Shown here: piece after piece, positions 6,192 to 51,877 of the stretch
Layout: every line of letters begins with the position of its first letter
How positions within the stretch are numbered: position 1 is the stretch's first letter
Assembly: GCA_021732745.1 (NCBI GenBank)
Contig: JAKFUK010000002.1
Location: 620,001 to 684,000, forward strand
DNA from: Nevskia sp.
GTDB taxonomy: Bacteria; Pseudomonadota; Gammaproteobacteria; Nevskiales; Nevskiaceae
DNA: 64,000 nucleotides
Reading direction: 5' to 3'
The notes under the pieces: generated by a model
Databases searched by the model: none
What the model was told of the DNA's origin: nothing
The model's input: the letters and a program-made list of their open reading frames with translations, nothing else
Program-made: the position numbers and the translations under genes

Positions 6192-6558
6192 GGTCGCTTC
6201 CTGAAAAGGTCTGAACGGTACTCTGGGGCCGGACTCAAGGCTTTACCAGACCATCATGCATCGTCTCTGCACGGATTTGGAACACGCAAAAGCCGCACCA
6301 CTGTTCGCCAACCAACATGGCAGTTCAGCCGCCGGTCCGCTTCGCGCCAAAGTGAGCGCTCGATAGCCGTCGAACGGTATTGATGCCGGTCATCGGCGTC
6401 TGGACGACGGTGGCGATAGCGTTCCCAATCACGACACAGGGTGATGCCAATCACCCGCGGGCAGCCGTTGCCGGCCACCAAAGTGCGCCGGAAAACCGAC
6501 ACCCGTTGATGCATCCAGACCACAGGCACCTCAGGTGCCATCCGAAAGGGGACAAGAC
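6192..6558. other. Intergenic region between divergent clpA and the lipase-like gene
   Basis: No gene is visible in these 367 bases. They must hold the clpA promoter (leftward) and that of the secreted pair (rightward), but I cannot pick out a convincing -35/-10 for either. A short palindrome GGCACC-TCA-GGTGCC lies at 6525-6539, about 20 bases before the lipase start, and could be an operator or a leader hairpin. Confidence 0.4.
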
Positions 6559-7569
6559 ATGCGATTCGCAACAATGCTCAGAACATTCGCAGCGCTCGCG
6601 CTGCTGACCATGGCGGGAGCGGCGCAAGCCGTGCCCTGCCTGATCTTCGTACACGGCAAATCGACCAACACCGGCACCTTCACCAGCTACACCACGGCCC
6701 GGAACTACTGGGTCAACGGCTCGGCAGACTTCATCCGCACCGCCACCCGCAATCTCACCGTGCCGTACTACGTGGTCGGCTACAACGGCACCCAGCGCTA
6801 TTACGAGAACAACGCCGCCGGTGAAGTGGCGCGCGAAATCGTGGCCGCGACCAATGGCACGGCCGATGGCGGCGGTCGCCGCTGCACCCGCACCTTCGCG
6901 CAGGGCGGCACCTTCGTGGTCGTGGCCCATTCGATGGGCGGCACGATCATGGATTACATCCTGGGCAACAACGACGCCAGCGATCCGAACTTCAACTATG
7001 GCGGCGCACCGTTTTCCACGGTTGCCGCAAGGGTGAGCTTCGCGATCACCACCGGCGGCGCCCATCGCGGCTCGCAGGGTGCGGATGCGGTCTGCGGCCA
7101 GTCCAACGGCGGCTGCAATTTTGTCGCCAGCTTCATCCAGAGCTGTGATGACGCCACCTTCTGGCTGCGTTCCGGTGAAGACGTGCAGGTGCGCAATTTC
7201 GCCAATGCACCGGCCCGGCTCATCTATCTGACCGGCGGCTACGAAGCCATCTTCGGGGCCAGCGTCTGCCTGTCCGGTGAAGACGACGGTGTGGTCCAGT
7301 ACGCCTCGCAATACGCCTGCAACGGCTCGACCGGCACCAGCTACGACAACACCAACGTCTGCCGCAACAACGCCAAGCAGGAGACCTCGAACTTCCGCAA
7401 TCTCGATTCCGGCCACGAAAACCACAGCGACGAACGCGACGACAGCGATTCCGACGTCCGCCGGCAGATTCCGGACGGCGTCTGGACCTGCAGCGGCGCG
7501 GCTTGCGCACCGAACACCCAGGTGCAGAGCGCGATGACCACCGCCCGCTTCATCTCGACGCTGTACTAA
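6559..7569 (+). CDS. Exported alpha/beta hydrolase (lipase-like)
   Basis: The 336-residue product starts with a clear Sec signal peptide ending at AAQA-VPC. An oxyanion-type FVHGKS segment follows, then the nucleophile elbow VVVAHSMGGT, with Ser in an A-H-S-M-G-G context as in many lipases and esterases. Eight or more cysteines in the mature part suggest periplasmic disulfide formation, as in type II secretion substrates. Asp (GEDDGVV) and His (SGHENH) candidates for the triad occur toward the C-terminus. ATG 6559 is preceded by a purine-rich GAAAGGGGAC. The gene is followed after 18 bases by another exported protein and lies close to gspC-F. That makes T2SS export plausible, but this is inference. 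Confidence 0.8.
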   Translation: MRFATMLRTFAALALLTMAGAAQAVPCLIFVHGKSTNTGTFTSYTTARNYWVNGSADFIRTATRNLTVPYYVVGYNGTQRYYENNAAGEVAREIVAATNGTADGGGRRCTRTFAQGGTFVVVAHSMGGTIMDYILGNNDASDPNFNYGGAPFSTVAARVSFAITTGGAHRGSQGADAVCGQSNGGCNFVASFIQSCDDATFWLRSGEDVQVRNFANAPARLIYLTGGYEAIFGASVCLSGEDDGVVQYASQYACNGSTGTSYDNTNVCRNNAKQETSNFRNLDSGHENHSDERDDSDSDVRRQIPDGVWTCSGAACAPNTQVQSAMTTARFISTLY

Positions 7570-7587
7570 AGCCCGGAAGCCAAGAAC

Positions 7588-8628
7588 ATGAAAACCAACT
7601 TCGTGCTGATGTCACTCGCCGCAGCGCTCATCGCGCCGGCCGCCGTCGCCCAGAACGCCACTGTGCCGTCGCTGACCGCCCAGGCCGCTGCCGACTACCG
7701 CGCCCAAGCGCGCTATCCGCGTTCGTCCCGGCCGATTCTCGATGCCGTCGACCCGCTGAGCAGCGGCCGTACCGTGTCCAAGCAGACCATGGCCGGGCCG
7801 AATGGCGCGGGCCCGCTGCTGTCGGTCTGGGCCTCGGCTATTTCCTACGAACCCGGCGAATCGGCGCTGCTCTACGCCGAACTGACCGATGCCCCGGCGC
7901 GTGCGCCCAGCCTCGCCAACCTGCTCGACAAGACCCGGCGCGATGCCGCCCAGTCGATCAAGGCCAAACTCATCGGCGAAACCAGCGGCCTGCTCGGCGA
8001 AGTGGTCTATCGCGATGACGGCCGCGACGGCGATGCCCGCGCCAACGACCGCATCTACACCGCCCGCTACACCCTGCCGGCCGCGCGGGCACCGGAACTG
8101 GGCTATGCGGAAGCCATCGGCGTCCACGTTCAGGCGGTCACCGAACTCGACGGCGATCGCGCCGCGCTAGGCGGCCTGCTCTACTCCAACCCCGGCGCGC
8201 GCCTGACCGGCAAGTTCCGCGATGTCATGCGCGACGGCCATCTGGTGATGTCGGCGGAAGTCGACGTGCGGGCACCGGGCCGGTATCACCTGGCCGGCAC
8301 CTTGTCAGGCGCGCGGGAAAAGCTGGTCGGCGACCGTCCGATGGCCTGGGCGCAGCAGGCGCAGCTGATGACGGCAGGCACCCAATGGATGGATCTGTCC
8401 TTCCACGGCCTGATTTTCCGTGATCTGAAGTCCTCGGGCCGCTACACGCTGAATGCGGTGACCCTGACCTCCGCGCTCGGCATGCCGAACGCGATGTCAT
8501 CGGTGCGTCGCGATGCCCACCAGACGCGGGCGATGGCGCTGTCGGAGTTCTCCGACAAGCCGTTCGTCGATGCCGCCCTCGCCGATGCAGCACAGCGGCT
8601 CGAAGCGGACGCGGCCGGCTCGCAGTAA
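7588..8628 (+). CDS. Exported protein, probable beta-sandwich companion of the lipase-like enzyme
   Basis: The 346-residue product has an N-terminal signal peptide (cleavage near AAVAQ-NA) and no further membrane segment. The middle contains SYEPGESALLYAELTD and, later, DDGRDGDARANDRIYTARY. This resembles the Asp/Gly-rich loop of choice-of-anchor X / Ig-like modules found in secreted proteins, often with hydrolases. It is 18 bases after the lipase-like gene and almost certainly co-transcribed. A role in stabilising or presenting the hydrolase is a guess; I do not recognise a lipase-specific foldase here. Confidence 0.65.
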   Translation: MKTNFVLMSLAAALIAPAAVAQNATVPSLTAQAAADYRAQARYPRSSRPILDAVDPLSSGRTVSKQTMAGPNGAGPLLSVWASAISYEPGESALLYAELTDAPARAPSLANLLDKTRRDAAQSIKAKLIGETSGLLGEVVYRDDGRDGDARANDRIYTARYTLPAARAPELGYAEAIGVHVQAVTELDGDRAALGGLLYSNPGARLTGKFRDVMRDGHLVMSAEVDVRAPGRYHLAGTLSGAREKLVGDRPMAWAQQAQLMTAGTQWMDLSFHGLIFRDLKSSGRYTLNAVTLTSALGMPNAMSSVRRDAHQTRAMALSEFSDKPFVDAALADAAQRLEADAAGSQ

Positions 8629-8682: not shown

Positions 8683-9012
8683 TCAGACCTTTTCCATCAC
8701 CGTCAGCAGCGGATGATGGTTCTTGCGGGCGAAGCTGTTGACCTGGGCGACCTTGGTCTCGGCGATCTCGGCCGGAAAGATGCCGGCGGTGCCGCGCCCG
8801 GCCTGATGAACCTGCAGCATGATCTGCACGGCCTGTTCGCGGGAATGGTGGAAGAAGGTCTCCAGCACCTGCACCACGAATTCCATCGGCGTGAAGTCGT
8901 CGTTGATCATCACCACTTTATAAAGCGGCGGCTGTTGCAGGCGCGGCTTGGCCTCGTCGACGACGAGACCAGTGCCGGAATCCGGATCAGGACGGGAATT
9001 GCGAGAAGCCAT
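8683..9012 (-). CDS. clpS: ATP-dependent Clp protease adaptor ClpS
   Basis: ClpS delivers proteins with N-terminal Leu, Phe, Tyr or Trp to ClpAP. The 109-residue product has a flexible N-terminal tail followed by the conserved core: [35 protein letters not shown] and a C-terminal HHPLLTVM. The residues that bind the N-degron (N and DD in INDD, M in TPMEFV) are present. ATG 9012 (MASRN) is chosen because upstream extension is not conserved. Leftward and divergent from gspC; normally it directly precedes clpA, but here two rightward genes intervene. Confidence 0.97.
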
Positions 9013-9159
9013 GCCGCGAAGTGTACCGAATTGTCGCCGCTGCCCGGCACCTGCAAGCAAGGCCCATCGACTGCCGACGCAGGCGCGATGGCAAGCCGTC
9101 GAGCGGTGCGTCGAAGCCGACACGCGGATTGCTCCCGCCCGCAACAAAGCCCCGCTATC

Positions 9160-10089
9160 ATGCTGACAATGGCTACTTTTTCCTCTTCACGACTGCAAGC
9201 GCTGCCCGGCTCGATGCCGGCGCTGACGGCCCGTTACGGGCGCCGGCTGCCCCAACTAGCGAGCCTGGTGCTGGTGGTGGTGATCGCCAAACTGGCCGCC
9301 GAACTGGTCTGGGCGCTGGTACCGGTCCCGGCCGGTGCCGGCTGGCAGCCGCCGCCGGCCAGCGCGCCCCAGATCGCCGCGCGCGGCGGTGTCGATCTGG
9401 CGACGATCAGCAATGCCCGGCTGTTCGGCCAGTTCACGGCACCGGTGGCACCGGCACTTGCCGATCTTGCCGCCGCTCCCGACACCCAGCTCAACCTGAC
9501 CCTGCTCGGCATCCTGTCGAACGGTCGCAACGACAAGGACAGCCGCTCTCGGGCGCTGATTTCAGCGCAGGGCGGCGAAGAAAAGCCTTATTCAGTTGGC
9601 GATGACGTGGCGCGCGGCGTGCAGCTCACCGCGATCTTCCCGGACCGGGTAATCCTGAACCGCAACGGCAAGCTGGAAACCCTGCGCCTCGACAAGGACA
9701 ACACCGACAGCCTGCCGGGTGCCTCGGTCATCCAGTTGCAGGAAGCCCCGGCCGCCGACGCGGGCGACGGCAGCGCCGCCGAATCGCTGGCGCAGATTCG
9801 CAGCGAATTGCTCAACGACCCGTCCAAGGTCGCCGACTACATCCGCGTCCAGCCGGTCAATTCCGGCAGCGGCCTGACCGGCTATCGCATCTACCCGGGC
9901 CGCGATCGCACGATTTTTGCTGCGGCCGGCCTGCGTCCCGGCGACGTGGTGACCGCCGTCAACGGCGTCACCCTCAACGACCCGGCGCGCTCGCTGCAAC
10001 TGCTGAACGAGCTGAGCCAGAGCAACCAGGTCAACCTCACCGTTGATCGTGGCGGTCAGCCGCAGAGCTTCAGCATCAATCTCGAATAG
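9160..10089 (+). CDS. gspC: Type II secretion system protein GspC
   Basis: GspC is the inner-membrane connector between the T2SS platform and the secretin. The 309-residue product has a cytoplasmic N-terminus, one membrane helix ([16 protein letters not shown]), a Pro/Ala-rich linker, and the HR domain around [12 protein letters not shown] followed by ALIS. It ends in a PDZ domain ([28 protein letters not shown]). The start may be ATG 9160 or ATG 9169; no strong Shine-Dalgarno separates them. It begins a rightward gspC-D-E-F run and is divergent from clpS with 147 bases between. Confidence 0.9.
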
Positions 10090-10151
10090 TCGTTTCTTCA
10101 CCCACGGCGCGCATCGCGTCCGCCGAACCGTAAAGCCCGCCTGACATCGCC

Positions 10152-12296
10152 ATGAACGCACGCAAGACCCTGAAACACGCCGCGCTGACCGTCGCCGTTG
10201 CCTCGGTGGTGGTCGCCGCTTCCAGCTCGGCGCTGTGGGCGCAGTCGGGCCGCAGCCGCGGTGCCGAAGTGACCTTGAACCTGAAGGATGCGGAAATCTC
10301 GACGTTGATCGCGACCGTCAGCGAAGTCACTGGCAAGAACTTCATCGTCGATCCGCGCGTGCGCGGCAAGGTCACCGTGGTGTCGTCGAGCCCGATGGAC
10401 GCCGCAGCCGTCTACGAAACCTTCCTCGCGGTGCTGCAAGTGCAGGGTTTTGCAGCGATTCCGGCAGGTGACGCGATCAAGATCGTGCCGGAAACCAATG
10501 CCCGCACCGACGGCGGCGGCCTGATTTCCGACGGCCGCGGCGTGCCGCTCGATGAAATCGTCACCCACGTCTACACGGTGCAGAACGTCTCGGCGTCGCA
10601 GTTGGTGGCCATCCTGCGGCCGCTGATTTCGCAGAGCGGCCACTTCGCTGCCTATTCCGGCAACAACTCGCTGATCATTTCCGACCGCGCCTCGAACGTC
10701 ACCCGCATCGAACGCCTGATCGCCCAGATCGACCAGAGCGGCGACCGCGAGATCGACGTCATCAAGCTCGAAAACGCCTCGGCCGGCGATGTCGTGCGCA
10801 TCCTCACCACCCTGGCGCAGGCTGCCAAGCAGGCCGATCCGACCGCCCAGGCCGGTGTCGTGATCGCCGACGAACGCAGCAACAGCGTGCTGCTCAGCGG
10901 CGAAAAGAGCGAACGCAGCCGCATGGCCGACATCGTTCGCCGGCTCGACTTGCCCGGCCCGACCGGCGGCGACACCCAGGTGTTCTATCTGAACTACGCG
11001 AGTGCCGAAAACCTCGCGCCGATTCTTGAAGGCTATGCCCAGTCCGCGTCCACGGCAGGGCGGGCCTCGGCCGGCGGCGCGATTCCGGGCGGCGCTCCCG
11101 GCTCGGCCCCGGCTCCGGCCGGCGGCGGTGGCGGCTCGGGCAGCACCCGGGTGATCGCCGACAAGGACACCAATTCGCTGGTGGTCACGGCGGCGCCGAA
11201 GGACATGCTGGCGATCCGCAACGTCATCAACCAGCTCGACATCCGCCGCCGTCAGGTGCTGGTCGAAGCGATCATTGCCGAAGTCAGCCAGACCAAGGCC
11301 AGCGAACTCGGTCTTGACTACGCGGCCTACAACCCGAAAGTCGGTGCCATCACCGGCATCCTCAACCAGTCGACGCAGGGTGCCTTGTCCAGTCTCGCCA
11401 GTGCCGCCGGTTCGGCAGCCGGCGGTGTCGCCACCGGCGGCACCAGCACCATCCTGTCGGCGGCGGCGTCGCTGATCGGCTCCGGTGCCACGGCCGGCGG
11501 CGGCGGCTTCACCAAGGGCGGCTCGTTCTTCGGCGTGCTGCTGCGCGCACTCGCGTCTGACGGCGACACCAACATCCTGTCGACGCCGCAGCTGACCACG
11601 CTCGATAACGAGGAAGCCAAGCTCAGCGTCGGCCAGGAAGTGCCGTTCCTGACCGGCAGCTTTTCCAACTCCGGCGGCGGCGGCAACAACGGTGCCGTCA
11701 ATCCGTTCCAGACCATCGAACGCAAGGAAGTGGGCCTGAAGCTCGGCATCACGCCAACCATCAATGAAAACAATGGCTTGAAGCTCAAGATCGACCTTGA
11801 AAGCTCCGGCATCGCCAGCGGCGGCGCGGGTACCGCCAGCCTCATCACCAACAAGCGCACGGTGACCAATTCGGTGTCGGTGGAAGGCGACCAGATCCTG
11901 TTCATTGGTGGCCTGATCGACAACCAGTTGACCGATTCGCAAAGCCGGATTCCGCTGCTGTCGAGCATCCCGGGCATCGGCGCACTGTTCAAGTCGCGCT
12001 CGGTGCGCAAGGCCAAGACCAACCTGATGATCTTCATTCATCCGGTGATCCTCGACGATCGCAGCGAAGCCGATTACTACACCCGCAAGCGTTACGACGG
12101 TGTGCGCAGCGCCGAAGTGCGGGCTGCCCAGGGGGCGGTGCCGCTGATTGGCGGTGCCCGCCCGGTGCTGCCGCAGTACGACAGCTACGAGCCCTACGCC
12201 GCCCCGGCTCCGCCACCGGCCGCCGCTCCGGCCCCGGCCCCAGAAGCAGTGGCTCCGCCAGCACAGGATGTGCCTGCCGTCGCGCCGAACCCGTAA
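10152..12296 (+). CDS. gspD: Type II secretion system secretin GspD
   Basis: GspD forms the outer-membrane channel of the T2SS. The 714-residue product has a signal peptide (to ALWAQ), N0 (VTLNLKDAEISTLI, KNFIVDPRVRGKVTV), N1-N3 repeats, and a Gly/Ser-rich loop near 305-325. The secretin core follows, with VGQEVPFLTGSF, ERKEVGLKLGI-TP and LFIGGLI. The C-terminus is a Pro/Ala-rich tail of about 40 residues instead of a recognisable pilotin-binding segment, and no gspS gene is in the window. It lies 62 bases after gspC and 21 before gspE. Confidence 0.96.
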   Translation: MNARKTLKHAALTVAVASVVVAASSSALWAQSGRSRGAEVTLNLKDAEISTLIATVSEVTGKNFIVDPRVRGKVTVVSSSPMDAAAVYETFLAVLQVQGFAAIPAGDAIKIVPETNARTDGGGLISDGRGVPLDEIVTHVYTVQNVSASQLVAILRPLISQSGHFAAYSGNNSLIISDRASNVTRIERLIAQIDQSGDREIDVIKLENASAGDVVRILTTLAQAAKQADPTAQAGVVIADERSNSVLLSGEKSERSRMADIVRRLDLPGPTGGDTQVFYLNYASAENLAPILEGYAQSASTAGRASAGGAIPGGAPGSAPAPAGGGGGSGSTRVIADKDTNSLVVTAAPKDMLAIRNVINQLDIRRRQVLVEAIIAEVSQTKASELGLDYAAYNPKVGAITGILNQSTQGALSSLASAAGSAAGGVATGGTSTILSAAASLIGSGATAGGGGFTKGGSFFGVLLRALASDGDTNILSTPQLTTLDNEEAKLSVGQEVPFLTGSFSNSGGGGNNGAVNPFQTIERKEVGLKLGITPTINENNGLKLKIDLESSGIASGGAGTASLITNKRTVTNSVSVEGDQILFIGGLIDNQLTDSQSRIPLLSSIPGIGALFKSRSVRKAKTNLMIFIHPVILDDRSEADYYTRKRYDGVRSAEVRAAQGAVPLIGGARPVLPQYDSYEPYAAPAPPPAAAPAPAPEAVAPPAQDVPAVAPNP

Positions 12297-12317
12297 GCGC
12301 GAAGACCGGACGAAGCC

Positions 12318-13814
12318 ATGGACGCTGCCAGCAACGCCCTGCGTCGCCCGCCGTTCGCGTTCGCGAAACGGCACGGCCTGATCGTGTCGACCGACCACGG
12401 CGACACCGTCGAACTGGTCTGCCGGCCCGGCATCAGTCTCGATGCCGTGCAGGAAGCGCGGCGCTTCATCCGCCGGCCGGTGAAACTGAAGGCGGTCAGC
12501 CTCGACGAGTTCGACGCGCTCTTGCAGCGCACTTACGAAGGCCAGACCGGCGCCAGCGCCGCCCTCGCCGACGGTCTGGAAGAAGACAGCGCCGACATCG
12601 ACTCCCTGAGTGCCGCGCTCGCCGAAGCCCAGGATTTGCTGGAAAGCGACGACGACGCACCGATCATCAAGTTCATCAATGGCTTGCTGGTCGAAGCGAT
12701 CAAGGAAAACGCCTCCGACATCCACATCGAGACCTTCGAGACGCGGGTGACGGTGCGTTTCCGCATCGACGGCGTGCTGCGCGAAATCCTCAACCCGCCG
12801 CGTTCGCTGGCGCCGAAGATCATTTCCCGCGTCAAGATCATGGCCAAGCTCGACATCGCCGAAAAGCGCCTGCCGCAGGACGGCCGCATCAGCCGCGCGT
12901 TCGGCGGCCGCAAGGTCGATGTCCGCGTGTCGACCATTCCCACCGGCGCCAACGCCGAGCGCGTGGTGATGCGTATTCTCGACAAGCAAGCCGAGCGTCT
13001 GGACCTTGAACAGCTGGGCTTGGGCCCGGTGCAGACCGGCGTGCTCAAGCGGATCATCAACCGCCCCTACGGCATCATGCTGGTCACCGGCCCGACCGGC
13101 TCCGGCAAGACCACGACCTTGTATTCAGCGCTGTCGACGCTCAACGATCGCAGCCGCAACATCATGACGGTCGAAGACCCGATCGAGTACTACATCGACG
13201 GCGTCGGCCAGACCCAGGTCAATCTCCGCGTCGAAATGACCTTCGCCAAAGGCCTGCGCGCGATCCTGCGCCAGGACCCGGACGTGGTGATGGTCGGCGA
13301 AATCCGCGATCTCGACACCGCCCAGATCGCTGTTCAGGCCTCCCAGACCGGCCATCTGGTGATGTCCACCCTGCATACCAATACCGCCGTCGGTGCCGTG
13401 ACCCGCCTGCGCGACATGGGGGTCGAGCCCTATCAGTTGTCGTCGTCCCTGGTTGGCCTCATGGCGCAGCGGCTGGTGCGCACCCTGTGCAAGCACTGCA
13501 AGACGCCGTACGAGCCCAAGCTTGCCGAGCGCGAACAGCTCGGCGTGGCCGATCGCAGCGATCTGGTGCTGTACAAGCCCGTTGGCTGCCCGCTATGCCG
13601 CCACACTGGCTTTTCCGGCCGCAGCGGCATACACGAGATCATCGAAGTCGATCGCCGTCTGGAATCCCTGATCCACGACAACGCCTCCGAGCAAATCCTC
13701 GAAGCCGCCGCTCGCGAACGCACCCCCGGCATCCTTCAATCGGGCCGCAACAAAGTGATTGCCGGCGACACCACGCTGGGTGAAGTGTTGCGCGTCACCA
13801 TTGAAGAAGGTTGA
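12318..13814 (+). CDS. gspE: Type II secretion system ATPase GspE
   Basis: GspE is the cytoplasmic hexameric ATPase that powers pseudopilus assembly. The 498-residue product has Walker A GPTGSGKT (258-265), an Asp box around VEDPIEY, the Walker B region DPDVVMVGEIRD (320-331), and His-box residues in LSTLHTNTA-type context. A zinc-binding tetracysteine has CKHC at 391-394 and CPLC at 424-427, as in classical GspE. A hairpin but no U-rich terminator lies between it and gspF. Confidence 0.97.
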   Translation: MDAASNALRRPPFAFAKRHGLIVSTDHGDTVELVCRPGISLDAVQEARRFIRRPVKLKAVSLDEFDALLQRTYEGQTGASAALADGLEEDSADIDSLSAALAEAQDLLESDDDAPIIKFINGLLVEAIKENASDIHIETFETRVTVRFRIDGVLREILNPPRSLAPKIISRVKIMAKLDIAEKRLPQDGRISRAFGGRKVDVRVSTIPTGANAERVVMRILDKQAERLDLEQLGLGPVQTGVLKRIINRPYGIMLVTGPTGSGKTTTLYSALSTLNDRSRNIMTVEDPIEYYIDGVGQTQVNLRVEMTFAKGLRAILRQDPDVVMVGEIRDLDTAQIAVQASQTGHLVMSTLHTNTAVGAVTRLRDMGVEPYQLSSSLVGLMAQRLVRTLCKHCKTPYEPKLAEREQLGVADRSDLVLYKPVGCPLCRHTGFSGRSGIHEIIEVDRRLESLIHDNASEQILEAAARERTPGILQSGRNKVIAGDTTLGEVLRVTIEEG

Positions 13815-13829
13815 AGCGCTGCGCGCTTT

Positions 13830-13855
13830 CAGAAGTGCCTTGAATGGCACTTCTG
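13830..13855 (+). other. Intercistronic hairpin between gspE and gspF
   Basis: CAGAAGTGCC and GGCACTTCTG form a perfect 10-bp stem with loop TTGAAT, 16 bases after the gspE stop. There is no T-tract, so it looks like an mRNA-processing or stabilising element, or a dispersed palindrome, rather than a terminator. The whole gap to gspF is 177 bases, unusually long for a T2SS operon. Confidence 0.6.
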
Positions 13856-13991
13856 AGCAGCGATTCAACGGGCGGCAGCCCAGGTCGCGCGCGCACAGTT
13901 TCACCCTGCTCGATCGTGGCTAAACGGGCTCAGTTCTTTCAACACCTTCCAATTTCTGCCTCAACTTAAGTAACGCCACTCAGCCCAAGCC

Positions 13992-15215
13992 ATGTCCGCC
14001 TACGAATACAGCGCTCTCGACGCCAAGGGCCGACAGGTCAAGGGGCTGATCGAGGGCGATACCCAGCGGCAGGTGCGGCAGAGCCTGCGGGAACGCGGCT
14101 TGACGCCGCTGGAAATTCGCGAAGTCGCCGAGAAGACGATCAGGGCGGCGGCCAGCGGTTTTTCAATGAACCGGGGCGGCAGTTTCAATTCCACCGAGCT
14201 GTCGCTGTTCACGCGCCAACTTGCCACCCTGATCCGCTCCGGCCTGCCGCTTGATGAAGGCTTGGCCGCGGTGTCGCAGCAAAGCGAATCGAAGCGCGTG
14301 CAGCGCGTCACGCTCGGCGTGCGCTCGCGGGTCACCGAAGGCAACAGCCTGGCCAAGGCGCTGGGTGATTTCCCGGGTGCGTTTCCGCCGCTGTTCCGGG
14401 CCACCATCGAAGCCGGCGAATCTGCCGGCAAGCTTGATTCGGTGCTCGAACGCCTCGCCGACTACGCCGAGCGCTCGCAGGCGATCAAGAGCAAGGTGAT
14501 GCTGGCCACCTTCTATCCGGCGATCCTCACCTTCGTCGCCATCGGCGTGATCGCGCTCTTGATGTCCTACGTGGTGCCGAAAGTGGTCGGTGTGTTCGAT
14601 TCCATCGGGGCCGATCTGCCGCCGCTGACCAAGGGCCTGATCGCCACCAGCGAATTCCTGCAGGCCTATGGCTTGATGATGTTCGTGGCGCTGGTGCTCG
14701 GCTTTTTCGTCTTCAAACGGGCGCTGAAGAACGACGGTTTCCGCCGCAAGTACCATCTTTGGGTGCTGCGCCTGCCGCTGATCGGCCGTCTGGTGCGCGG
14801 CGCCAACACCGGCCGCTTCATGCGCACCTTGGGCATTCTGTTCGGCAGCGGCGTGCCGATTCTCGACGCCATGCGCATCGGTTCGCAGGTGGTGGAGAAC
14901 CTGCCGATGAAGGAAGCCATCGACGCCGCCGCCAAGCGCGTTCGCGAAGGTGCCAGCCTGAACAAGTCGCTGGCCGAAAGTCGGCTGTTCCCGCCGATCA
15001 CCATGCATCTGATCGGTTCGGGCGAGGCCTCCGGCAAGCTCGACGAGATGCTCGACCGCGCTGCGGAGAATCAGGAACGCGAGCTGGAAACCCTGATCGC
15101 AGCGTTGATGAGCCTGTTCGAGCCGATCCTGATCCTGACCATGGGCTCGGTGGTGCTGCTGATCGTGCTGGCCATCCTGCTGCCGATCTTCAATCTCAAC
15201 CAGCTGGTTCAGTAA
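13992..15215 (+). CDS. gspF: Type II secretion system inner-membrane platform protein GspF
   Basis: GspF is the polytopic platform protein contacting GspE, GspL and GspC. The 407-residue product starts YEYSALDAKGRQVKG, has two repeated T2SSF domains (LFTRQLATLIRSGLPLDEGL and FMRTLGILFGSGVPILDAM), and three membrane segments (about 170-190, 225-240 and a C-terminal LILTMGSVVLLIVLAILLPIF). It is the last gsp gene here: gspG-N and gspO are absent from the window and must lie elsewhere if the system is functional. Confidence 0.96.
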   Translation: MSAYEYSALDAKGRQVKGLIEGDTQRQVRQSLRERGLTPLEIREVAEKTIRAAASGFSMNRGGSFNSTELSLFTRQLATLIRSGLPLDEGLAAVSQQSESKRVQRVTLGVRSRVTEGNSLAKALGDFPGAFPPLFRATIEAGESAGKLDSVLERLADYAERSQAIKSKVMLATFYPAILTFVAIGVIALLMSYVVPKVVGVFDSIGADLPPLTKGLIATSEFLQAYGLMMFVALVLGFFVFKRALKNDGFRRKYHLWVLRLPLIGRLVRGANTGRFMRTLGILFGSGVPILDAMRIGSQVVENLPMKEAIDAAAKRVREGASLNKSLAESRLFPPITMHLIGSGEASGKLDEMLDRAAENQERELETLIAALMSLFEPILILTMGSVVLLIVLAILLPIFNLNQLVQ

Positions 15216-15470: not shown

Positions 15471-17423
15471 GTGTATCGCAAGCAGACGGTGGAACGCGCG
15501 CGGCCGCTTGCCGCCCTGATCGCCTGCTGCCTGCTGCTCGCCGGCTGCCCCGACGATGACGGCCGCGCCGCGCCGGCCGCGCCGGAAACCGCCGCCTTCA
15601 CCGGCACCGTGTCGTTCGGCATGCCGATCGAGTCATTCGAACTGAGAGTCGGGGCCTTCGACACTGCCCCGCGCACCACCCGCATCGGGGCCAGCGGCCG
15701 TTACGAAGTGTCGGCGCTGGGGCTGACGGCACCGGCCATCATCGGCGTCCAGGACACGCTGTATGCCGCTGCCACCGATCTGACCGCCCCGGCGCAGGTC
15801 ACCGCGCTGACCCATCTGCAACTGGTGGAAGTGCTGCGCGACGATCCGGTCAACGCGCTGCGCAATGCCGTCAACACCCGCAGCAGCAGCACGGCGGTCG
15901 ATTACGCGCCGATCACGGCGGCAGCGCTGGCCCGCGCGCAGGCCCGGGTGGTCAGCCTGCTGCGCGAGCGGCTCAGCTACGAGCTGCCGGCTGCCGTCGC
16001 GGCGGCTGATTTCGTCGCCACGCCGTTCAGCAACACGCCCGGCGATCCCACTTACGACGCGCTGGCCGCGCTCAATGCGGCGTTCACGGCCAACGGCAGC
16101 GAACTGACCATCCTGGTTCGCGAGCGGGTCCGGGAACTGGAACCCTGCACCCGCTTCTTCGTTGATCTGCGCATCGGCGGCGCGGTGTCGGAGTTCTGCG
16201 CCAACACCCGCGAAACGGTGGCCGACAACACCGCCGGCGATGCTTTCGAGTATCGCTACACGGCGCTCGACGGCAGCACGCTGCGGGTGCGCGCCGCCGC
16301 CAGCACGGTGACGAGCGTGCGCCTCGATCAGGCCAGCGGTGCTGCCTACGCCTGCGAAAGCGCGGCCTGCGCCGGGCTTTCCATCAGTGCTGCGGATGCC
16401 GACGGTCGTCGCGAACTGCGTTTCACCCAGCTCGCACTGGCAGCCGCCGACGGTAGTGCTGCCGCCACGCTCGGCGGCATCATCGGCACCGCCCTGCCCG
16501 GCCTGCCGCCGCTGGATTGCGACGGTGCGCGGCGGCCGCCGCAGCCGGTGTATGTCACCGCCGACGACGGCAGCATCAGCGGCCTGTGCATCTCCCTGAG
16601 CTTTGGCAACGCCGGTGCCCGCAGCATCTACCGCGATCTTTCCAGCGGCGCGCAGCGGCTGTCGATCCACGCCGACGACACGGCGGCAGCGTCGATCGGC
16701 CTGTATCGCCTCGACAACCTCGGCCGCCGGATCACCGATTACCGCTGCGAAGGCAGCGCTTGCTTGGGCTTCAGCGCCGGGCCGCTGTTCGCGCTGCCGG
16801 GCAGCCTGCGCAATCGCGAACTGCGCCTGGTCGACACCCGGCTGAGCAGAGTCGGCAACGGCAGCGGGCCGGCTTCGGTCACCGTGCGCGGCACGCTGAC
16901 GGTGGCGCTCGGCATCGAAACCACGCCGCCGGCCTGTGCCTTGTCGCCGCCTTCCGAACGGCTGCGCGCCAGGGTCAGCAACGAGACTGCCGACTGGGAC
17001 ATCTGCCCGCCGTACGACCTGTCGGAAAACGGCACGGTGAGGGTCGATCGAGTGTCGGCGCTCGACTACGGCGGCCGCTACACCGGCGGCCTGCGCTACA
17101 GCTTCGAGAACGCCACCGCCATTCCCGGCTCGCTGGTGGTGGTGACCACCCTCGGCGTGGTGCGTCGTGTCGAATACAGCCGGGGCCGCGCGATCAGCAG
17201 CGAAACCGGGCGGCTCGATGACGAACTCATGCTCTGCGACGGCCTTGCCTGCCGCGGTGCCGAGATCGACCCGGCCAACGCCCAGACCGGCCATGTGCTG
17301 CGTTTCGCCGGTGTGCTGCTGAGCGAGGAACGCTACGACGGCAGCGCCGCCGATCGTCAGGTGCGGCTCGATGGCGCGCTGCTGAGCGCGCCGGATTGTC
17401 TGGCCAGCGGCAGTTGCCCGTGA
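15471..17423 (+). CDS. Large exported lipoprotein with three four-cysteine modules
   Basis: The 650-residue product starts at GTG 15471, preceded by GGGGAG at 15459-15464. It has a lipobox LLLAGC (Cys 26) followed by Asp residues. Residues about 42-220 form an Ala-rich N-terminal part that I cannot assign. Three repeats follow, each with four cysteines: C226-C243-C295-C300, C350-C373-C426-C431 and C489-C512-C589-C594. The second pair always has the form C-x4-C-x-G (CESAACAG, CEGSACLG, CDGLACRG). Two more such modules occur in the exported protein at 21358. The stop overlaps the start of the TonB-dependent receptor (TGATG), implying translational coupling. This suggests a surface or periplasmic partner of the receptor. 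I do not recognise a named family; the function is unknown. Confidence 0.8.
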   Translation: MYRKQTVERARPLAALIACCLLLAGCPDDDGRAAPAAPETAAFTGTVSFGMPIESFELRVGAFDTAPRTTRIGASGRYEVSALGLTAPAIIGVQDTLYAAATDLTAPAQVTALTHLQLVEVLRDDPVNALRNAVNTRSSSTAVDYAPITAAALARAQARVVSLLRERLSYELPAAVAAADFVATPFSNTPGDPTYDALAALNAAFTANGSELTILVRERVRELEPCTRFFVDLRIGGAVSEFCANTRETVADNTAGDAFEYRYTALDGSTLRVRAAASTVTSVRLDQASGAAYACESAACAGLSISAADADGRRELRFTQLALAAADGSAAATLGGIIGTALPGLPPLDCDGARRPPQPVYVTADDGSISGLCISLSFGNAGARSIYRDLSSGAQRLSIHADDTAAASIGLYRLDNLGRRITDYRCEGSACLGFSAGPLFALPGSLRNRELRLVDTRLSRVGNGSGPASVTVRGTLTVALGIETTPPACALSPPSERLRARVSNETADWDICPPYDLSENGTVRVDRVSALDYGGRYTGGLRYSFENATAIPGSLVVVTTLGVVRRVEYSRGRAISSETGRLDDELMLCDGLACRGAEIDPANAQTGHVLRFAGVLLSEERYDGSAADRQVRLDGALLSAPDCLASGSCP

Positions 17424-20419
17424 TGCGGAGGCTGACACTGGCGGCGGGTTTCATCGCCCTGAGCGCGCAGGCGGCACCCGAGCCGACCCAGGTGGTGCCG
17501 CTCGCCGATGGCGACACGCCGGCCGCGCGTTCGCCGTCCGGCATCACCGACACCACGCCGCCGCCGGTGATTCCGGCGCAGCCCGATGCGGCACCGGTCG
17601 CCGCCGTGCAGCTCGGCCCGGTGTCGGTGAAAGGCGTGAGGAAGCCGATCACCGTCGGCGTGCTGCCCGGGCTGGATTTGAGCCGCGACCAGATTCCCAG
17701 CGCCATCCAGAGCGCCACCGCCAAGGACATCCGCGAATCCGGGGCACTGAACCTGACCGATTTCCTGAACACGCAATTGCAGTCGGTCAACGTCAACGAT
17801 TTCCAGGGCAATCCCTTTCAGGTCGATGTCAGCTTTCGCGGCTTCACCGCCGGGCCGCAGATCGGCACGCCGCAGGGTTTGTCGGTGTTTTTCGGCGGCA
17901 CCCGGGTCAACGAGCCGTTTGGCGATGTCGTCAACTGGGACCTGATCCCCCTGTTCGCCATCGAACGTCTGGACCTGTTTCCCGGCTCCAATCCGGTGTT
18001 CGGCCTGAACACGCTCGGCGGGGCCATCGCCCTGAAAACCAAGTCCGGCTTCACCGCGCCGGGGCTGTCGACCAAGGCCAGCGGCGGCTCGTTTGGCCGG
18101 CGGCAGGCGGAAGCGGCGATCGGCGGCAGCGTCGGCGATCTCGCCGGCTATGCCGGGCTGTTCTACTTCGCCGAAGACGGCTGGCGCGACAACTCGGCCA
18201 GCGAAGTGCGCCAGGCATTTGCGCGCGGCGACTGGAACTTCTCCGGCGGTACCGTGGCCTTGAGCGCCCTGCTGGCCGACAACGACCTGATCGGCAACGG
18301 CCTGATTCCGGTCGAACAGCTGGCAGCCGATCGCGACAGCGTGTTCACCTCGCCGGACCAGACGCGAAACCGCCTGAACCAGTTCAATCTGAGCGGTCAG
18401 TTCGAAGTCAGCCGGGTGTTCAACGTCACCGCGCAGGGCTATCGCCGCGACAGCCGCCGCCGGGGCGTCAACGGCGATGTCTACGGCGAATTCGACGACA
18501 TCGGCCCCAGCTCGCCGCTCGGCAACCGCTTCGTGCGCAATCCCGAAGACGAAATCTGCCGCTACGCCGATGTCGATGACGACGGCCGCCCCGACACGCT
18601 GTCCGATGGCACGACACAAGCCGCGCCGCTCAACGATCCCTTCCGCGCCGGTCTCTGCGAAAACGTGCAGTACGGCGGCACGCCGCGCAACGGTGCCTAC
18701 GTGACCGAAAACGGGGAGTTCGGCGTGGGCCCCGGTGTCGCCACCGGCACGCCGAACGCGCTGCTGACCCGCACCAACATCGGCCAGGTGACCTACGGCG
18801 GCGCGGTGCAGCTCAACTGGAATTTCGAGCAGCACAAATTCCTCTTCGGGGCCTCGGTGGATTCCAGCCGCGCCGACTACTCGGCGCGCCAGCAGCTCGG
18901 CCTGATCGACGCCGGCCGCCGGGTTTTCGTCGACCCGGCGAATGTCGATCCGCTATTCCGTGCCGCGCAAATCGCCATTCCGATCAATGACTTCAACGGT
19001 ACCTCGCGGACCCTGAGCGCCTATTTCAGCGAAACCTTCAGCCCCCGCGACAACCTGCATCTGACCTTGGCCGGCCGCTACAACTTCACCCAGGTGCGCA
19101 ATCAGGTGGACGCCCGCATCGGCGTTGACCTGCACGAACTGGTCAACCGCCTGCCGACCGCGATCCTGTGTCCGGAGGCTGATCTCGCCTCCTGCCCGGA
19201 CAGCCTGCCGCCGATCCGGATCAACGATCTGAGCAATGAAACCCTGGCCCCGACCCGGGAAAAATTCATCTTCCGGTCGCTGAATCCTTCGTTCGGCTTC
19301 AACTGGCTGCCGGTCAAGTCACTGAATCTGTTCGGCAATATATCGCTTGGCAGCCGCGCGCCGTCGGTCATCGAACTCGGTTGCGCCTTCGATGCCACGC
19401 CAGTGGTGACGGTGCCCGGCTTCACCGATCCGGCCACCGGTCAGGACGTGCCGCCGCAGACCGCGCCGCGCAGCCTGGTCGGGCCGACCTGCAGCCTGCC
19501 GACCTCACTATCCGGCGATCCCTTCCTGCCGCAGATTCGCTCGCGCTCGGCAGAACTCGGTGCCCGCGGCACCGTGCTCGGCGGCTTGCAGTGGAACCTG
19601 AGCGTCTACCGCACGGATTTGCAGGACGACATCTATTTCGTCGGCGTATCGGCCTCGCGCAGCTATTTCGACACCATCGACAAGACCCGCCGCCAGGGTC
19701 TGGAATCCGGGCTCAAGGGTCGCTGGCGCTTTCTCGAATACAAGCTCGGCTACGCCTACACGGCAGCGACTTTCGAGTCCGAGTTCTACGTGCTGAGCCC
19801 GCACAACGCCTCGGCCGACTTCAATCGCAACAACAGCTTCGGCGGCAGCGGCCCGCAGGCCGGCTTGAACAATGGCCTCGGCACTTTCCGCACCGTGCGC
19901 GTGGAGCCGGGCGCGATCCTGCCGGCCAGCCCGCTGCACAACATCAACTTGAATCTCGATTTCAAGCTCACCAAGGCCCTGAGCTTCGGGGTGACCACGG
20001 TGTTCCACTCCAAATCCTTCGTCCGCGGCAACGAGAACAACGCCCATCAGGCCAGCGGTTCCGATCAGGTCACCGATGGCTTCGGCCCGGTGCAGGGCAT
20101 CGGCAGTTTCAACGGCGGCCGGCCGTTCGCAACGCAAGGCGCGGTGCCGGAATACGCGGTGGTCAATGTCGATGCCGCCTGGCGCTTCCGCACGCATTTC
20201 ACCGCCTTCGTGCAAGTCCTGAACGTGCTCGATCAGGACTACGCGAGCGCCGGCCGGCTGGGCGTCAATCCGTTCGCAACCGGCCCGAACGGCGCGATCG
20301 GCCCCGGTGGCTACAACTACAACTCGATCGAGCACCGCAACACCACGTTCCTGGGCCCCGGCGCGCCGCGCGGCGTGTTTGCCGGGCTCGCCTACGACTT
20401 CGATTTCGCATCCGAATGA
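17423..20419 (+). CDS. TonB-dependent outer-membrane receptor
   Basis: The 998-residue product has a short signal peptide (to SAQA), a Pro-rich stretch, and a plug domain: IPSAIQSATAKDIRESGALNLTDFLN, QVDVSFRGFTAGPQIGTPQGLSVFF, LFAIERLDLFPGSNPVFG and LNTLGGAIALKTK. A long beta-barrel of alternating residues ends in an aromatic strand (GVFAGLAYDFDF). The segment LGPVSVKGVRK near residue 70 may serve as TonB box, but is not a canonical one. ATG 17423 overlaps the lipoprotein stop; a TTG 27 bases earlier is the alternative. The transported ligand cannot be inferred; an extracellular Asp-rich loop (DVDDDGRPD) could bind Ca2+. The neighbours are exported proteins, with no ABC transporter or metabolic gene. 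Confidence 0.93.
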   Translation: MRRLTLAAGFIALSAQAAPEPTQVVPLADGDTPAARSPSGITDTTPPPVIPAQPDAAPVAAVQLGPVSVKGVRKPITVGVLPGLDLSRDQIPSAIQSATAKDIRESGALNLTDFLNTQLQSVNVNDFQGNPFQVDVSFRGFTAGPQIGTPQGLSVFFGGTRVNEPFGDVVNWDLIPLFAIERLDLFPGSNPVFGLNTLGGAIALKTKSGFTAPGLSTKASGGSFGRRQAEAAIGGSVGDLAGYAGLFYFAEDGWRDNSASEVRQAFARGDWNFSGGTVALSALLADNDLIGNGLIPVEQLAADRDSVFTSPDQTRNRLNQFNLSGQFEVSRVFNVTAQGYRRDSRRRGVNGDVYGEFDDIGPSSPLGNRFVRNPEDEICRYADVDDDGRPDTLSDGTTQAAPLNDPFRAGLCENVQYGGTPRNGAYVTENGEFGVGPGVATGTPNALLTRTNIGQVTYGGAVQLNWNFEQHKFLFGASVDSSRADYSARQQLGLIDAGRRVFVDPANVDPLFRAAQIAIPINDFNGTSRTLSAYFSETFSPRDNLHLTLAGRYNFTQVRNQVDARIGVDLHELVNRLPTAILCPEADLASCPDSLPPIRINDLSNETLAPTREKFIFRSLNPSFGFNWLPVKSLNLFGNISLGSRAPSVIELGCAFDATPVVTVPGFTDPATGQDVPPQTAPRSLVGPTCSLPTSLSGDPFLPQIRSRSAELGARGTVLGGLQWNLSVYRTDLQDDIYFVGVSASRSYFDTIDKTRRQGLESGLKGRWRFLEYKLGYAYTAATFESEFYVLSPHNASADFNRNNSFGGSGPQAGLNNGLGTFRTVRVEPGAILPASPLHNINLNLDFKLTKALSFGVTTVFHSKSFVRGNENNAHQASGSDQVTDGFGPVQGIGSFNGGRPFATQGAVPEYAVVNVDAAWRFRTHFTAFVQVLNVLDQDYASAGRLGVNPFATGPNGAIGPGGYNYNSIEHRNTTFLGPGAPRGVFAGLAYDFDFASE

Positions 20420-20507
20420 CGGTGGACGCACGGCCATCCGGATCGTCAACGGCTGCCGGACCTGCGCGTCCGTCGGCCTCAACCCCGAGCAGCACGAGGA
20501 GAACCCC

Positions 20508-21290
20508 ATGCAGAAAACCATCCTGAAATCCGCCGCTGTCGCCGCCCTGACGCTTGCCGCCGCCCCTGCTTTCGCGGTCGGCTACGAGCCGCTCACCAGC
20601 AGCGGCAGCACGGTGCTGCTGAGCTGCGCCGGCACCGAAAGCAACCCGAACCCGACGCGCAACGAATGCCGCGTGTTCGGCAATCTGCCGACCGGCCGCT
20701 TCGCCGGTACGCTGGCTGGCCGTCAGGGCCTGTGGCGGCTGGTGCGCTCCAATGTCGGCCAGCCGCTGATCGCCAACGGCACCCGCATCGGCACGCTCGA
20801 CGACCGCGTCTGGCAGCGCAACAACAGCAACGAATACGTGTTCGGCATGCGGGTCAGCGTCGAAAATCGCCTGTGGACGCCGCCGTCCGGCGTTTGCACC
20901 GACACCACGCCGGCCTACTTCGAGATCAACGACATGTTCCGCAACGGCTTTGCGGCGATCACCGGTCTGGACATCGCCTACCGCCAGGGCACGGCCGAGG
21001 AAGGCGCATGGCTGGTGGGCCGCACTGCACAGGGCCTGAACCAGTACGCCGGCTCGCCGGACGGCCTGAGCCCGGCGCGCAACAATGATCTGGTCGATTT
21101 CCGCACCGATGTGAACTTCGAGGATCCGGACGGCACTTCGGTGTTCAATTCCTCCTACATGATGGTCGCCGCGACCCTGCCGAACGGTGTGTCCGACAAC
21201 CCGAGCACCGGTGCCGTGCGCATCTATCAGGGCGGCGAGGAAGGCCAGTGCCTGTTCTCGGTGACCGCCAGCGGCTACACGCCGCGCTGA
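20508..21290 (+). CDS. Exported protein of unknown family, 260 aa
   Basis: The product has a Sec signal peptide (LAAAPAFA-VG) and a mature part with about four cysteines (LLSCAGTE, NECRVFG, SGVCTD, GQCLFS), many Asn, and no membrane segment. The central region NDMFRNGFAAITGLDIAYRQG is distinctive, but I cannot name the family. A strong Shine-Dalgarno AGGAG (20496-20500) supports ATG 20508. It lies 88 bases downstream of the TonB-dependent receptor and is probably its co-expressed periplasmic or secreted partner. Confidence 0.7.
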   Translation: MQKTILKSAAVAALTLAAAPAFAVGYEPLTSSGSTVLLSCAGTESNPNPTRNECRVFGNLPTGRFAGTLAGRQGLWRLVRSNVGQPLIANGTRIGTLDDRVWQRNNSNEYVFGMRVSVENRLWTPPSGVCTDTTPAYFEINDMFRNGFAAITGLDIAYRQGTAEEGAWLVGRTAQGLNQYAGSPDGLSPARNNDLVDFRTDVNFEDPDGTSVFNSSYMMVAATLPNGVSDNPSTGAVRIYQGGEEGQCLFSVTASGYTPR

Positions 21291-21357
21291 TGCGGCCGCT
21301 GCTCCCGGCTGCGGCTTGCCTTCGCCGTCGCCGGGCGCAGCCACGATTTCTTCGCTG

Positions 21358-22305
21358 ATGACGACCGGTTCCGGCGTTCGCTTCGCGTCCCTGCTGATCG
21401 CGGCGGCGCTGGTGATTGCGGCTGCCGTTTGGTTCAGCATCGACCCGCATCCGGCACCGGTCGATAAAGCCGTTTCAGCGCGCCCGCCGGCTGCGGTGGC
21501 GCTGGCGGCACGGCCGATCGTCAACGATGGGCCGCTGCGAACGGCGGCCCAACCCGGCGGTATCGCCGCCGATGGCGTTTGCCTGGGCACGCTGCTGCGC
21601 ATCGAACTGACGGCCACGGCGGAAGCGGCCGACGAATGCCTGGGCGCGCCATCCTCCGATCAGAACGGCGAGATTCGCCGCCATCAATTCAGTGCCGCCA
21701 GCGGCTGGTCGCTGGCGATCCGGGTTGCGTCCGGAAAGGTGCTTGACGCCGTCGCGACACGAAACGGCGAGATCGTCGCGACTTGCGAAGCCGCCGCCTG
21801 TACCGGCATCAGCATCGGCCTGCCCGATCAGGACGCTGTCCAGGACATCGCGCTGCAAGCGCTGCCTCTGGTCGACGCCGACGGCCGCATCCAGCACTTG
21901 AGCGCCCGACTGCGCAGCGCACCGGGCTACGCCTGCCCCGGTGCCTCGCTGATCATCAGTTACAGCGACAGCCGTTACCTGCACTTCTGCCCTTTCGGCG
22001 GCAGCGGTGTCGTCTACGACGAAGCCGGGATTGGCACGCTCAGCTTTCGCAGTCTGGAAGGCACGACATTGCGGGTGATGCTCGACGCTCAGGATCGCGT
22101 GATCGGCGTCGACTACGGTGCCTACCGCTGCACCGCCGCCACCTGCATCGGCGTGCTGGCCCTGCTCGCTGACCCGCTGGGCCAGCGCTCGATCGGCTTC
22201 AGCGGCACCGTGCTGGAAGCGCCGGACGCCGAATCCGACGCCGGTGCCCTGAGCATCAGCCTCAACGGCCGCCTGGAACTGCCGCCGGAGCCGGCGGAGC
22301 TGTAG
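21358..22305 (+). CDS. Membrane-anchored exported protein with two four-cysteine modules
   Basis: The 315-residue product has an N-terminal hydrophobic anchor (FASLLIAAALVIAAAVWF) without lipobox or clear cleavage site. Two modules homologous in layout to those of the lipoprotein at 15471 follow: C75-C94-C143-C148 and C193-C211-C258-C263. Their C-x4-C-x-G cores read CEAAACTG and CTAATCIG. Spacing between second and third Cys (49 and 47) is close to that in the lipoprotein (52 and 53). Module borders also share the pattern of a Cys-free strand pair ending in D-x-x-x-R-x-x-x-F. ATG 21358 is chosen since upstream codons belong to no conserved part. It ends the receptor locus; function unknown. 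Confidence 0.7.
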   Translation: MTTGSGVRFASLLIAAALVIAAAVWFSIDPHPAPVDKAVSARPPAAVALAARPIVNDGPLRTAAQPGGIAADGVCLGTLLRIELTATAEAADECLGAPSSDQNGEIRRHQFSAASGWSLAIRVASGKVLDAVATRNGEIVATCEAAACTGISIGLPDQDAVQDIALQALPLVDADGRIQHLSARLRSAPGYACPGASLIISYSDSRYLHFCPFGGSGVVYDEAGIGTLSFRSLEGTTLRVMLDAQDRVIGVDYGAYRCTAATCIGVLALLADPLGQRSIGFSGTVLEAPDAESDAGALSISLNGRLELPPEPAEL

Positions 22306-36480: not shown

Positions 36481-36528
36481 TCAAGCCGACTGGGCACAAG
36501 CAGCCATGCCGAGCGGCTTAAGTTAGGC
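36481..36528. other. attC-like recombination site
   Basis: L-type boxes TCAAGCCG and CGGCTTAA (7 of 8 complementary) flank a 25-base variable centre and are followed at once by GTTAGGC. The expected outer inverse core (RYYYAAC) upstream is degenerate; GCTGACC is the nearest candidate I see. The GTTAGGC supplies the TAA stop of the leftward REC-GGDEF gene. Confidence 0.6.
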
Positions 36529-37560
36529 GATAGAAGCCGCCAGCACACAGCGATTGCGCCCGCTGCGCTTGGCGGCGTACATCGCTTCGTCCGCCGCGCG
36601 GATCAGTTGCTCGCGGCTTTCGCCGTTGGGCGGAAACATCGCCAGGCCGATGCTGGCGCCGATCTCGACGGTGACCGGGCCATTCGCGGTGGCCACGGTG
36701 TAGGGTCGGCGCAGGTCGTGGCCGATCACTTCGCAGACTCTCAAGCCCGCGGCTTCACCATCGGCAAGGCTTTCGAGGATCACCGCGAATTCGTCGCCGC
36801 CAAGTCTTGCCACCGTGTCTTCCTGGCGCAGCAGGGCGCGCAGGCGATCGGCGATCGCTTTCAGGAGTTCGTCGCCGACCGGGTGGCCGTGGGTGTCGTT
36901 GACCGGCTTGAAACCGTCGATGTCGAGATAGGCGAGGCCGAACTTGCGCTGGTGGCGGCGGCTGCGTTCGATGGCGCTGTCGAGCCGATCCATGAACAGC
37001 ATGCGGTTCGGCAGGTCGGTCAAACCATCGTGGCTGGCGCGGTGCCAGGCGAGCTTTTCGGTTTCGCGGCGCAGGGCGATTTCCTTTTCCAGCGCCCGCA
37101 TGTGCTGCGACAGCTGTTCAAGGGCGTCCTGCAGCTCGGTCTTGCGCCGGTACAGCTCCAGAAAGACGCCGACCTTGGACTTGAGGATGGTTTCGTTGAC
37201 CGGCTTGGCGATGTAGTCGACGGCACCCGAGCCGTAGCCCTTGAGCCGGTTCATGTCGTCGTAGGCGGCGCTGATGAAGATGATCGGCGTATCGCGGCTG
37301 CCTTCGTCTTCGCCAAGCAGTTCGGCCACTTCAAAGCCGTCCATCTCCGGCATGTTGACGTCGAGCAGGATCAGCGCGAAGTGGTGGTCGAGACAGGCGG
37401 CCAGCGCGTCATTGCCGGAATCGGCTTCGATCAGTTCAGCGCCGGACTTCGCCAGCAGGCGGCGCAGCGCCAGCCGGTTCGGCGCGTGATCGTCGACGAT
37501 CAGGATCTTCGGCAGTTCGGGTGCTGCGGCGACAGCGCTGGAGGGTTCGAGGTCGGTCAT
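36523..37560 (-). CDS. Response regulator with GGDEF (diguanylate cyclase) output
   Basis: The 345-residue product has an N-terminal receiver (phospho-acceptor D67, Lys119 in YIAKPV), a coiled-coil linker (about 140-172) and a GGDEF domain with an intact GGDEF active site at 254-258. A product-inhibition I-site R245-x-x-D248 stands five residues before it. It should make cyclic di-GMP when phosphorylated. It overlaps cheB by 4 bases (ATGA) and is the last gene of the kinase operon, probably receiving phosphate from the hybrid kinase. Its stop codon is formed by the attC core of the neighbouring cassette, so the original C-terminus may have differed slightly. Confidence 0.95.
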   Translation of the reverse strand: MTDLEPSSAVAAAPELPKILIVDDHAPNRLALRRLLAKSGAELIEADSGNDALAACLDHHFALILLDVNMPEMDGFEVAELLGEDEGSRDTPIIFISAAYDDMNRLKGYGSGAVDYIAKPVNETILKSKVGVFLELYRRKTELQDALEQLSQHMRALEKEIALRRETEKLAWHRASHDGLTDLPNRMLFMDRLDSAIERSRRHQRKFGLAYLDIDGFKPVNDTHGHPVGDELLKAIADRLRALLRQEDTVARLGGDEFAVILESLADGEAAGLRVCEVIGHDLRRPYTVATANGPVTVEIGASIGLAMFPPNGESREQLIRAADEAMYAAKRSGRNRCVLAASIA

Positions 37561-38965: not shown

Positions 38966-38966
38966 G

Positions 38967-42607
<3,641 letters not shown>

Positions 42608-42611
<4 letters not shown>

Positions 42612-51478: not shown

Positions 51479-51877
51479 ATGTACCTGGTCGACAGCTCGG
51501 TCTGGATCGATTTCGGTCGTCCGCATCCGCGCCCGCCGTCACAGATGCTCAGGCGGCTCATCGAACGCGAGGTTGCCGTGCATCTGACCGGCACGATCGT
51601 TCAGGAAATCCTGCAAGGCGCACGCGATGACGTGCATCTGGCTCGGATGACGCGCTGGCTGGCCCCGCATCGGCTGCTGGTTCCGAAAGACGCATTCCGC
51701 ACCGCGGCGGCAGCGGCCGCGCTCTACGCCCGCTGTCGCTGGGCCGGCGTCACGCCTCGCAGCGCCAACGACTGCCTGATCGCCCAATTCGCCCTCGACT
51801 ACGAACTGACGCTGCTGCACGACGACGCCGATTTCGAGCGCATCGCCATCGTCGAACCGCGGTTGAAGCTGGCCTAG
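51479..51877 (+). CDS. vapC: VapC-type PIN domain ribonuclease toxin
   Basis: The 132-residue PIN domain has acidic metal ligands in YLVDSSVWIDF, TGTIVQEILQGA, PRSANDCLIAQFAL and LLHDDADFERIA, the standard four-position set. VapC toxins cleave tRNA or rRNA. Paired with vapB upstream. Confidence 0.93.
   Translation: MYLVDSSVWIDFGRPHPRPPSQMLRRLIEREVAVHLTGTIVQEILQGARDDVHLARMTRWLAPHRLLVPKDAFRTAAAAAALYARCRWAGVTPRSANDCLIAQFALDYELTLLHDDADFERIAIVEPRLKLA

Follow-up and report, generated by a model that had tools for sequence, protein, structure and literature searches.

In a 64,000-nucleotide stretch of the Nevskia sp. genome (GenBank assembly GCA_021732745.1, contig JAKFUK010000002.1, positions 620,001 to 684,000; this whole stretch is hereafter the window), a four-cysteine module occurs five times in two proteins encoded on either side of a TonB-dependent receptor (TBDR) gene. 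Our analysis supports the conclusion that all five belong to a single, real domain family. Among the genomes searched, this family is restricted to one genus, and by its sequence it is recognised by none of the libraries searched. The genome behind the window (3.99 Mb, 91% complete) includes the window in contig C2. The features of the locus are as follows.

15471..17423, + strand: protein A, a 650-aa lipoprotein with signal peptide, N-terminal region (residues 27-225) and then modules A1-A3 (open reading frame; orthologues in 7/58 genomes of the family)
16146..16517, + strand: module A1 of 124 aa, with cysteines spaced 17/52/5
16518..16934, + strand: module A2 of 139 aa, with cysteines spaced 23/53/5
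16935..17420, + strand: module A3, 162 aa, cysteine spacing 23/77/5, with an extra C-terminal cysteine pair
17423..20419, + strand: TBDR, Plug plus beta-barrel (Pfam; orthologues)
20508..21290, + strand: P4, a secreted protein of about 260 residues with 4 cysteines, between the TBDR and B genes
21358..22305, + strand: protein B, 315 aa from its ATG
21580..21933, + strand: module B1 of 118 aa, with cysteines spaced 19/49/5
21934..22302, + strand: module B2 of 123 aa, with cysteines spaced 18/47/5

The five cysteine spacings reported for A and B in the earlier note were exact on re-measurement. The same cysteine pattern was observed in 3+2 copies in mature A plus B, against a maximum of one in 20,000 shuffles. 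When window modules were compared in pairs, scores with z > 5 were obtained for four of the ten pairs, all involving A1; the other six gave z values of 1.7-3.3, with 1-16 of 200 shuffles scoring equally high. Pairwise comparison alone is thus weak evidence for one family, and therefore a leave-one-position-out profile test was performed, in which a profile was built without one repeat position and that position was then sought among 20,000 shuffled decoys. The test covered 34 of the 35 modules from seven genomes, the A1 copy of genome G017 being cut by a contig end. All 34 copies were recovered, 33 of them at E <= 7e-5. The weakest was A2 of L009, a Nevskia sp. metagenome-assembled genome that holds the closest named relative of A (48% identity); its score was 15.7 bits, the top decoy in the same round reaching 13.7. 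The claim of a real domain family is supported by this recovery together with the shared element order and the common top structural match of the two models described below.

The repeat unit is longer than the segment from C1 to C4. It includes a conserved tail, approximately R-x-L-x-[FL] ... L-x-G-x-[LI], and runs up to the next copy, so that neighbouring copies abut; the 25 copies that were measured are 115-162 residues long. No column of the 25-row module alignment is invariant apart from those of the four cysteines. The ending C-x4-C-x-G, said in the earlier note to be constant, holds for all five window copies but for only 24 of 34 copies across the seven genomes; C-x4-C is kept in 33 of these 34. 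The extra C-terminal cysteine pair of the window A3 was found, among the seven A3 copies, otherwise only in L009. The proposed stabilisation by disulfides, probably C1-C2 and C3-C4, is inferred from the invariance of the cysteines and the exported appearance of the proteins.

The fold was predicted with AlphaFold2 for two of the five window copies, A1 and A3, which were modelled separately with the use of 10 module copies from the window and L009. The predicted local distance difference test score was 91.7 for A1 and 81.7 for A3. Both models have the same order of elements, as judged by eye from secondary-structure strings, and the same best structural match, LpqH, of the mycobacterial 19-kDa lipoprotein family (Pfam PF05481). 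Barrels of TbpB, a family characterised by a duplicated eight-stranded barrel, are also among the matches of both models, ranked below LpqH. Sequence identity of the modules to three LpqH entries is 7-14%; LpqH gives no Pfam profile match to the modules and belongs to a different phylum with a different envelope, and we know of no TonB receptor context for it. Searching a viral structure library with the A1 model gave no match at E <= 0.001. The predicted fold is not unlike everything known, as both LpqH and the TbpB barrels resemble it, and the most likely reading of the five copies is a small extracytoplasmic beta-barrel-like domain. A fold shared by all copies had been anticipated; the models support it for A1 and A3. 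Differing folds, or a strong match to a described family, had been named beforehand as outcomes against a new domain; the two modelled folds agree, and no such match was found.

In agreement with the earlier proposal, no described sequence family in the libraries searched matches the modules above chance. Proteins A, B and P4 gave nothing above the cut-offs of Pfam, NCBIfam and PHROGs, the best chance rows being E 0.52 for B and E 0.074 for P4. Scanned singly against Pfam, the 25 modules matched seven families, each by one module of the 25 and with a best E of 0.016, which is chance. No TbpB, lipoprotein C or LpqH family was among the Pfam matches of A, B and the 25 modules, in a scan with an E limit of 10 and filters that drop most matches above about 0.1. 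Searches of PDB sequences with A, P4 and the module profile returned chance-level rows only; for the module profile this was a single row, E 1.2 to a chain of eIF5A, which was discarded as chance. Neither A nor P4 had a useful match in plasmids, and among the 133 stretches of viral contigs that fit a P4 pattern there was no relative. A literature search limited to open-licence papers found no publication on this domain or locus.

A search of 58 genomes of the family (TBDR at E <= 1e-100; A, B and P4 at E <= 0.001) matched each of the four proteins in an identical set of seven, all belonging to the genus of the window (7 of 18 genus genomes). Gene order is identical in the six carriers where it can be read, including G017, in which A continues on a second contig; in G025 the pieces of the locus are spread over three contigs. 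The module profile, built on 25 of the 35 copies from five of the seven genomes, gave five matches in each of 7 of the 85 genomes of the order and none in the remaining 78. In 369 genomes of the class, the only credible match was in the own genome of the window. A partial match in G390 (E 0.0038, 18.7 bits, two internal stops) was judged to be noise. Since the four genes are present in the same genomes and in the same order, they behave as a unit, although the seven carriers may form a single clade and hence count as one event.

The likely ATG of the TBDR, at 17423, shares one base with the stop codon of A, suggesting translational coupling, and A, TBDR, P4 and B form an apparent operon. P4, the gene between the receptor and B, is a fourth gene in addition to the three of the earlier note (260 aa from the ATG at 20508; the 262-aa sequence P0004 was used). 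The lipobox of A reads LAGC, with the cysteine to be lipidated, by prediction, at residue 26 (15546-15548). Protein B consists of an N-terminal hydrophobic anchor, an Ala/Pro-rich linker and modules B1-B2, and is without a lipobox. The receptor assignment is above the curated Pfam cut-offs for both domains, PF07715 (45.8 bits) and PF00593 (119.4 bits). After B, the next genes are a major facilitator superfamily transporter gene and plsX on the opposite strand.

The modules differ in constraint. A3 is the most conserved between orthologues, with 39 invariant columns among seven orthologues, against 18-24 in the other, shorter modules (six orthologues for A1). When the window and L009 are set against the remaining genomes of the comparison, identity is 39-44% for A3 and 23-35% for A1, A2, B1 and B2. 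Because it is the most constrained module, A3 appears to be the best candidate for contact with a conserved partner. In the module tree, A2, A3 and B2 form well-supported groups by repeat position and B1 a weak one (73/58); the A1 copies were not recovered as a single group, and the program warned of long branches. From this grouping by position, at least three repeat positions seem to predate the split of the carrier genomes.

Beyond the carrier lineage, a search at E <= 1e-60 found a receptor of this type in 35 of the 369 class genomes, a count that includes the own genome. P4 is rarer, being found among these 369 only in the own genome and in two others of one genus, the latter with two P4 homologues each; these two belong to another family, which they alone represent in the sample. 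In all four cases a same-type receptor adjoins the P4 homologue. The distant P4 homologues are the following.

L109, 4044-4844: distant P4 homologue
L110, 1897-2739: distant P4 homologue
L129, 2127-3437: distant P4 homologue
L130, 1952-3262: distant P4 homologue

No module was detected in 17 stretches around receptor homologues, several of them short or ending at a contig edge. Because the receptor-P4 pair occurs where no module is detected, the pair is probably the older core, with A, B and the modules a later addition in this lineage. Two of the four distant P4 homologues were scanned for the VPLPA-CTERM surface-sorting tail; one carries it (27.9 bits against a cut-off of 25.35) and the second stays below the cut-off, at 22.2 bits. 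Among the carriers, at least three genomes (G018, G011 and G017; L047, L049 and L051) encode two P4 paralogues in tandem, and the window, L009 and G013 encode one P4; the P4 proteins of the window and L009 are 75% identical. Acidic residues conserved in a nine-row P4 alignment (E-x-N-D, D-x-N and GEEGQ) suggest a metal or ligand site.

The PDB sequence relatives of the receptor at E <= 0.001 are only YncD and a transporter of pyrroloquinoline quinone (PQQ), and in L115 the gene adjoining the receptor homologue, the sole such neighbour scanned, codes for a PQQ-associated beta-propeller. PQQ or a lanthanide or other metal, hinted at by these remote relatives, is kept as a lead only, because the PqqU model scores 48 bits on the receptor, far under its cut-off of 1200. 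By a crude motif, response regulators were seen near receptor homologues in 9 of the 17 loci (L109-L123), some of them distant or doubtful and some others missed; a sensor kinase is also nearby in L115.

Uptake systems that pair a receptor with a lipoprotein are familiar above all from Bacteroidetes and from animal pathogens, as TbpAB and HpuAB. With reference to these pairs, we judge the chances to be about even that the modules are a lineage-specific accessory domain of the TBDR uptake system, A serving as a capture protein as TbpB does beside TbpA. The lipoproteins TbpB, LbpB and HpuA capture host-restricted nutrients together with a partner TBDR, the hand-off being presumed, according to passages in PMC7857515. 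TbpB-like surface lipoproteins are often encoded beside TBDRs, in 120 of 185 Slam-lipoprotein clusters as given in a section of PMC5449769, and barrel duplication is described for TbpB and some predicted cargo of the type XI secretion system in part of PMC12282271. Like TbpB or LbpB with TbpA or LbpA, A is a lipoprotein encoded beside a TBDR and has repeated small domains, predicted to be beta-barrel-like. Unlike those of TbpB, its modules give no sequence-profile match, contain four conserved cysteines each and stand three in tandem, with no handle domain shown; the locus differs further in having B, a second module protein, membrane-anchored and with two copies, and the secreted P4. P4 for its part resembles haemophores of the Hemophilin/HphA type in being a secreted protein encoded with a TBDR, but has no family match above chance, and one distant homologue bears the VPLPA-CTERM tail. 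By our verdict, the locus is a version of the known receptor-plus-lipoprotein arrangement rather than a new kind of system.

In such a system, the module would probably help to catch or pass on whatever the TBDR imports. The three modules of A, on a lipid-anchored envelope lipoprotein, would keep the substrate, or P4 as its carrier, at the mouth of the receptor. The two modules of B, on an apparent inner-membrane anchor facing the periplasm, would offer the same kind of module there and so meet the substrate. These membrane locations, the capture and the hand-over are all inferred; the role of A and B in 'working with the receptor', as the earlier note put it, is deduced from the apparent operon and the presence in the same seven genomes, possibly one clade. 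A full relay is a rather doubtful extension, in which outer-membrane lipoprotein modules collect substrate or loaded P4 and inner-membrane-anchored modules receive it in the periplasm, the same undescribed four-cysteine barrel domain acting at both ends.

Unlikely, in our estimate, is that the modules are barrels for envelope scaffolding or adhesion, with A in the outer and B in the inner membrane positioning or stabilising the receptor and P4 free of substrate contact. The best fold match being an envelope lipoprotein, LpqH, ahead of TbpB, agrees with such a role, and the low identity of A1, A2, B1 and B2 fits loosely constrained scaffolds; but all five modules are kept in every carrier genome, and the clearly stronger constraint on A3 speaks for a site specific to a partner or a ligand.

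A and P4 might instead be substrates of a type II secretion system, the modules being export or surface-display domains and the link to the receptor secondary. The genes concerned lie directly upstream of A.

8878..15215, + strand: type II secretion genes gspC, gspD, gspE and gspF (Pfam)

By eye, gspF is also upstream of A in L009, where the two are adjacent, and in G018, G013 and G025, where one or two genes intervene; in G011 and G017 the stretch stops before gspF would appear. Type II secretion can place one lipoprotein, PulA, on the surface, according to a passage in PMC7857515. We hold this explanation to be improbable, as B, itself with two modules, is apparently held in the inner membrane, which makes the module look unlike a surface-export tag, and as the one-base overlap ties A to the receptor and not to gspF, from which it is separated by a 255-bp gap. 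Slam (PF04575), the exporter on which TbpB and LbpB depend, had no match in the own genome (91% complete), and none in 14 control genomes either; Slam and type II secretion are both only candidates for the route of A to the surface, if any. Finally, FecR reports the occupancy of FecA, and B, with its single N-terminal hydrophobic segment and would-be periplasmic module region beside a TBDR cluster, could be thought a similar sensor in cell-surface signalling; with only about eight residues before that segment, no FecR or sigma-factor match in B and no sigma factor among six neighbouring window genes scanned, this is very hard to credit.

Several neighbouring features were also observed. Upstream of gspC, at 6535-8625, are genes for a hydrolase-like protein and a Cys-free 346-residue protein, both exported-looking by eye and in an order kept in L009; they are possible type II secretion substrates. 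In the five carrier genomes other than those of the window and L009, a long protein is encoded just upstream of A, with about 1,950-1,980 residues in its whole copies; the window and L009 lack it at that position. In L050 (2135-8074), the only one scanned, it contains a Lamin Tail Domain, an endonuclease/exonuclease/phosphatase domain and PKD/Calx-beta-like domains and is presumably ExeM/NucH-like; similar long open reading frames were seen by eye in L047/L048, L049, L052 and L055. Elsewhere in the window, again by eye, short open reading frames resembling PIN-domain (VapC-type) proteins lie at 51479-51874 and 60946-61356, and a signalling-type cluster (response regulator, CheR-like, and a 1,214-residue receptor/kinase-like protein) at 36526-42611 on the minus strand.

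A Nevskia-like lineage thus seems to have assembled a receptor-plus-lipoprotein arrangement for itself, by joining a domain unrecognised in the libraries searched to a receptor-P4 pair that also occurs where no module is detected. Proteins otherwise labelled 'hypothetical' can be annotated by means of the domain, and its apparent placement at two membranes makes the relay model directly testable.
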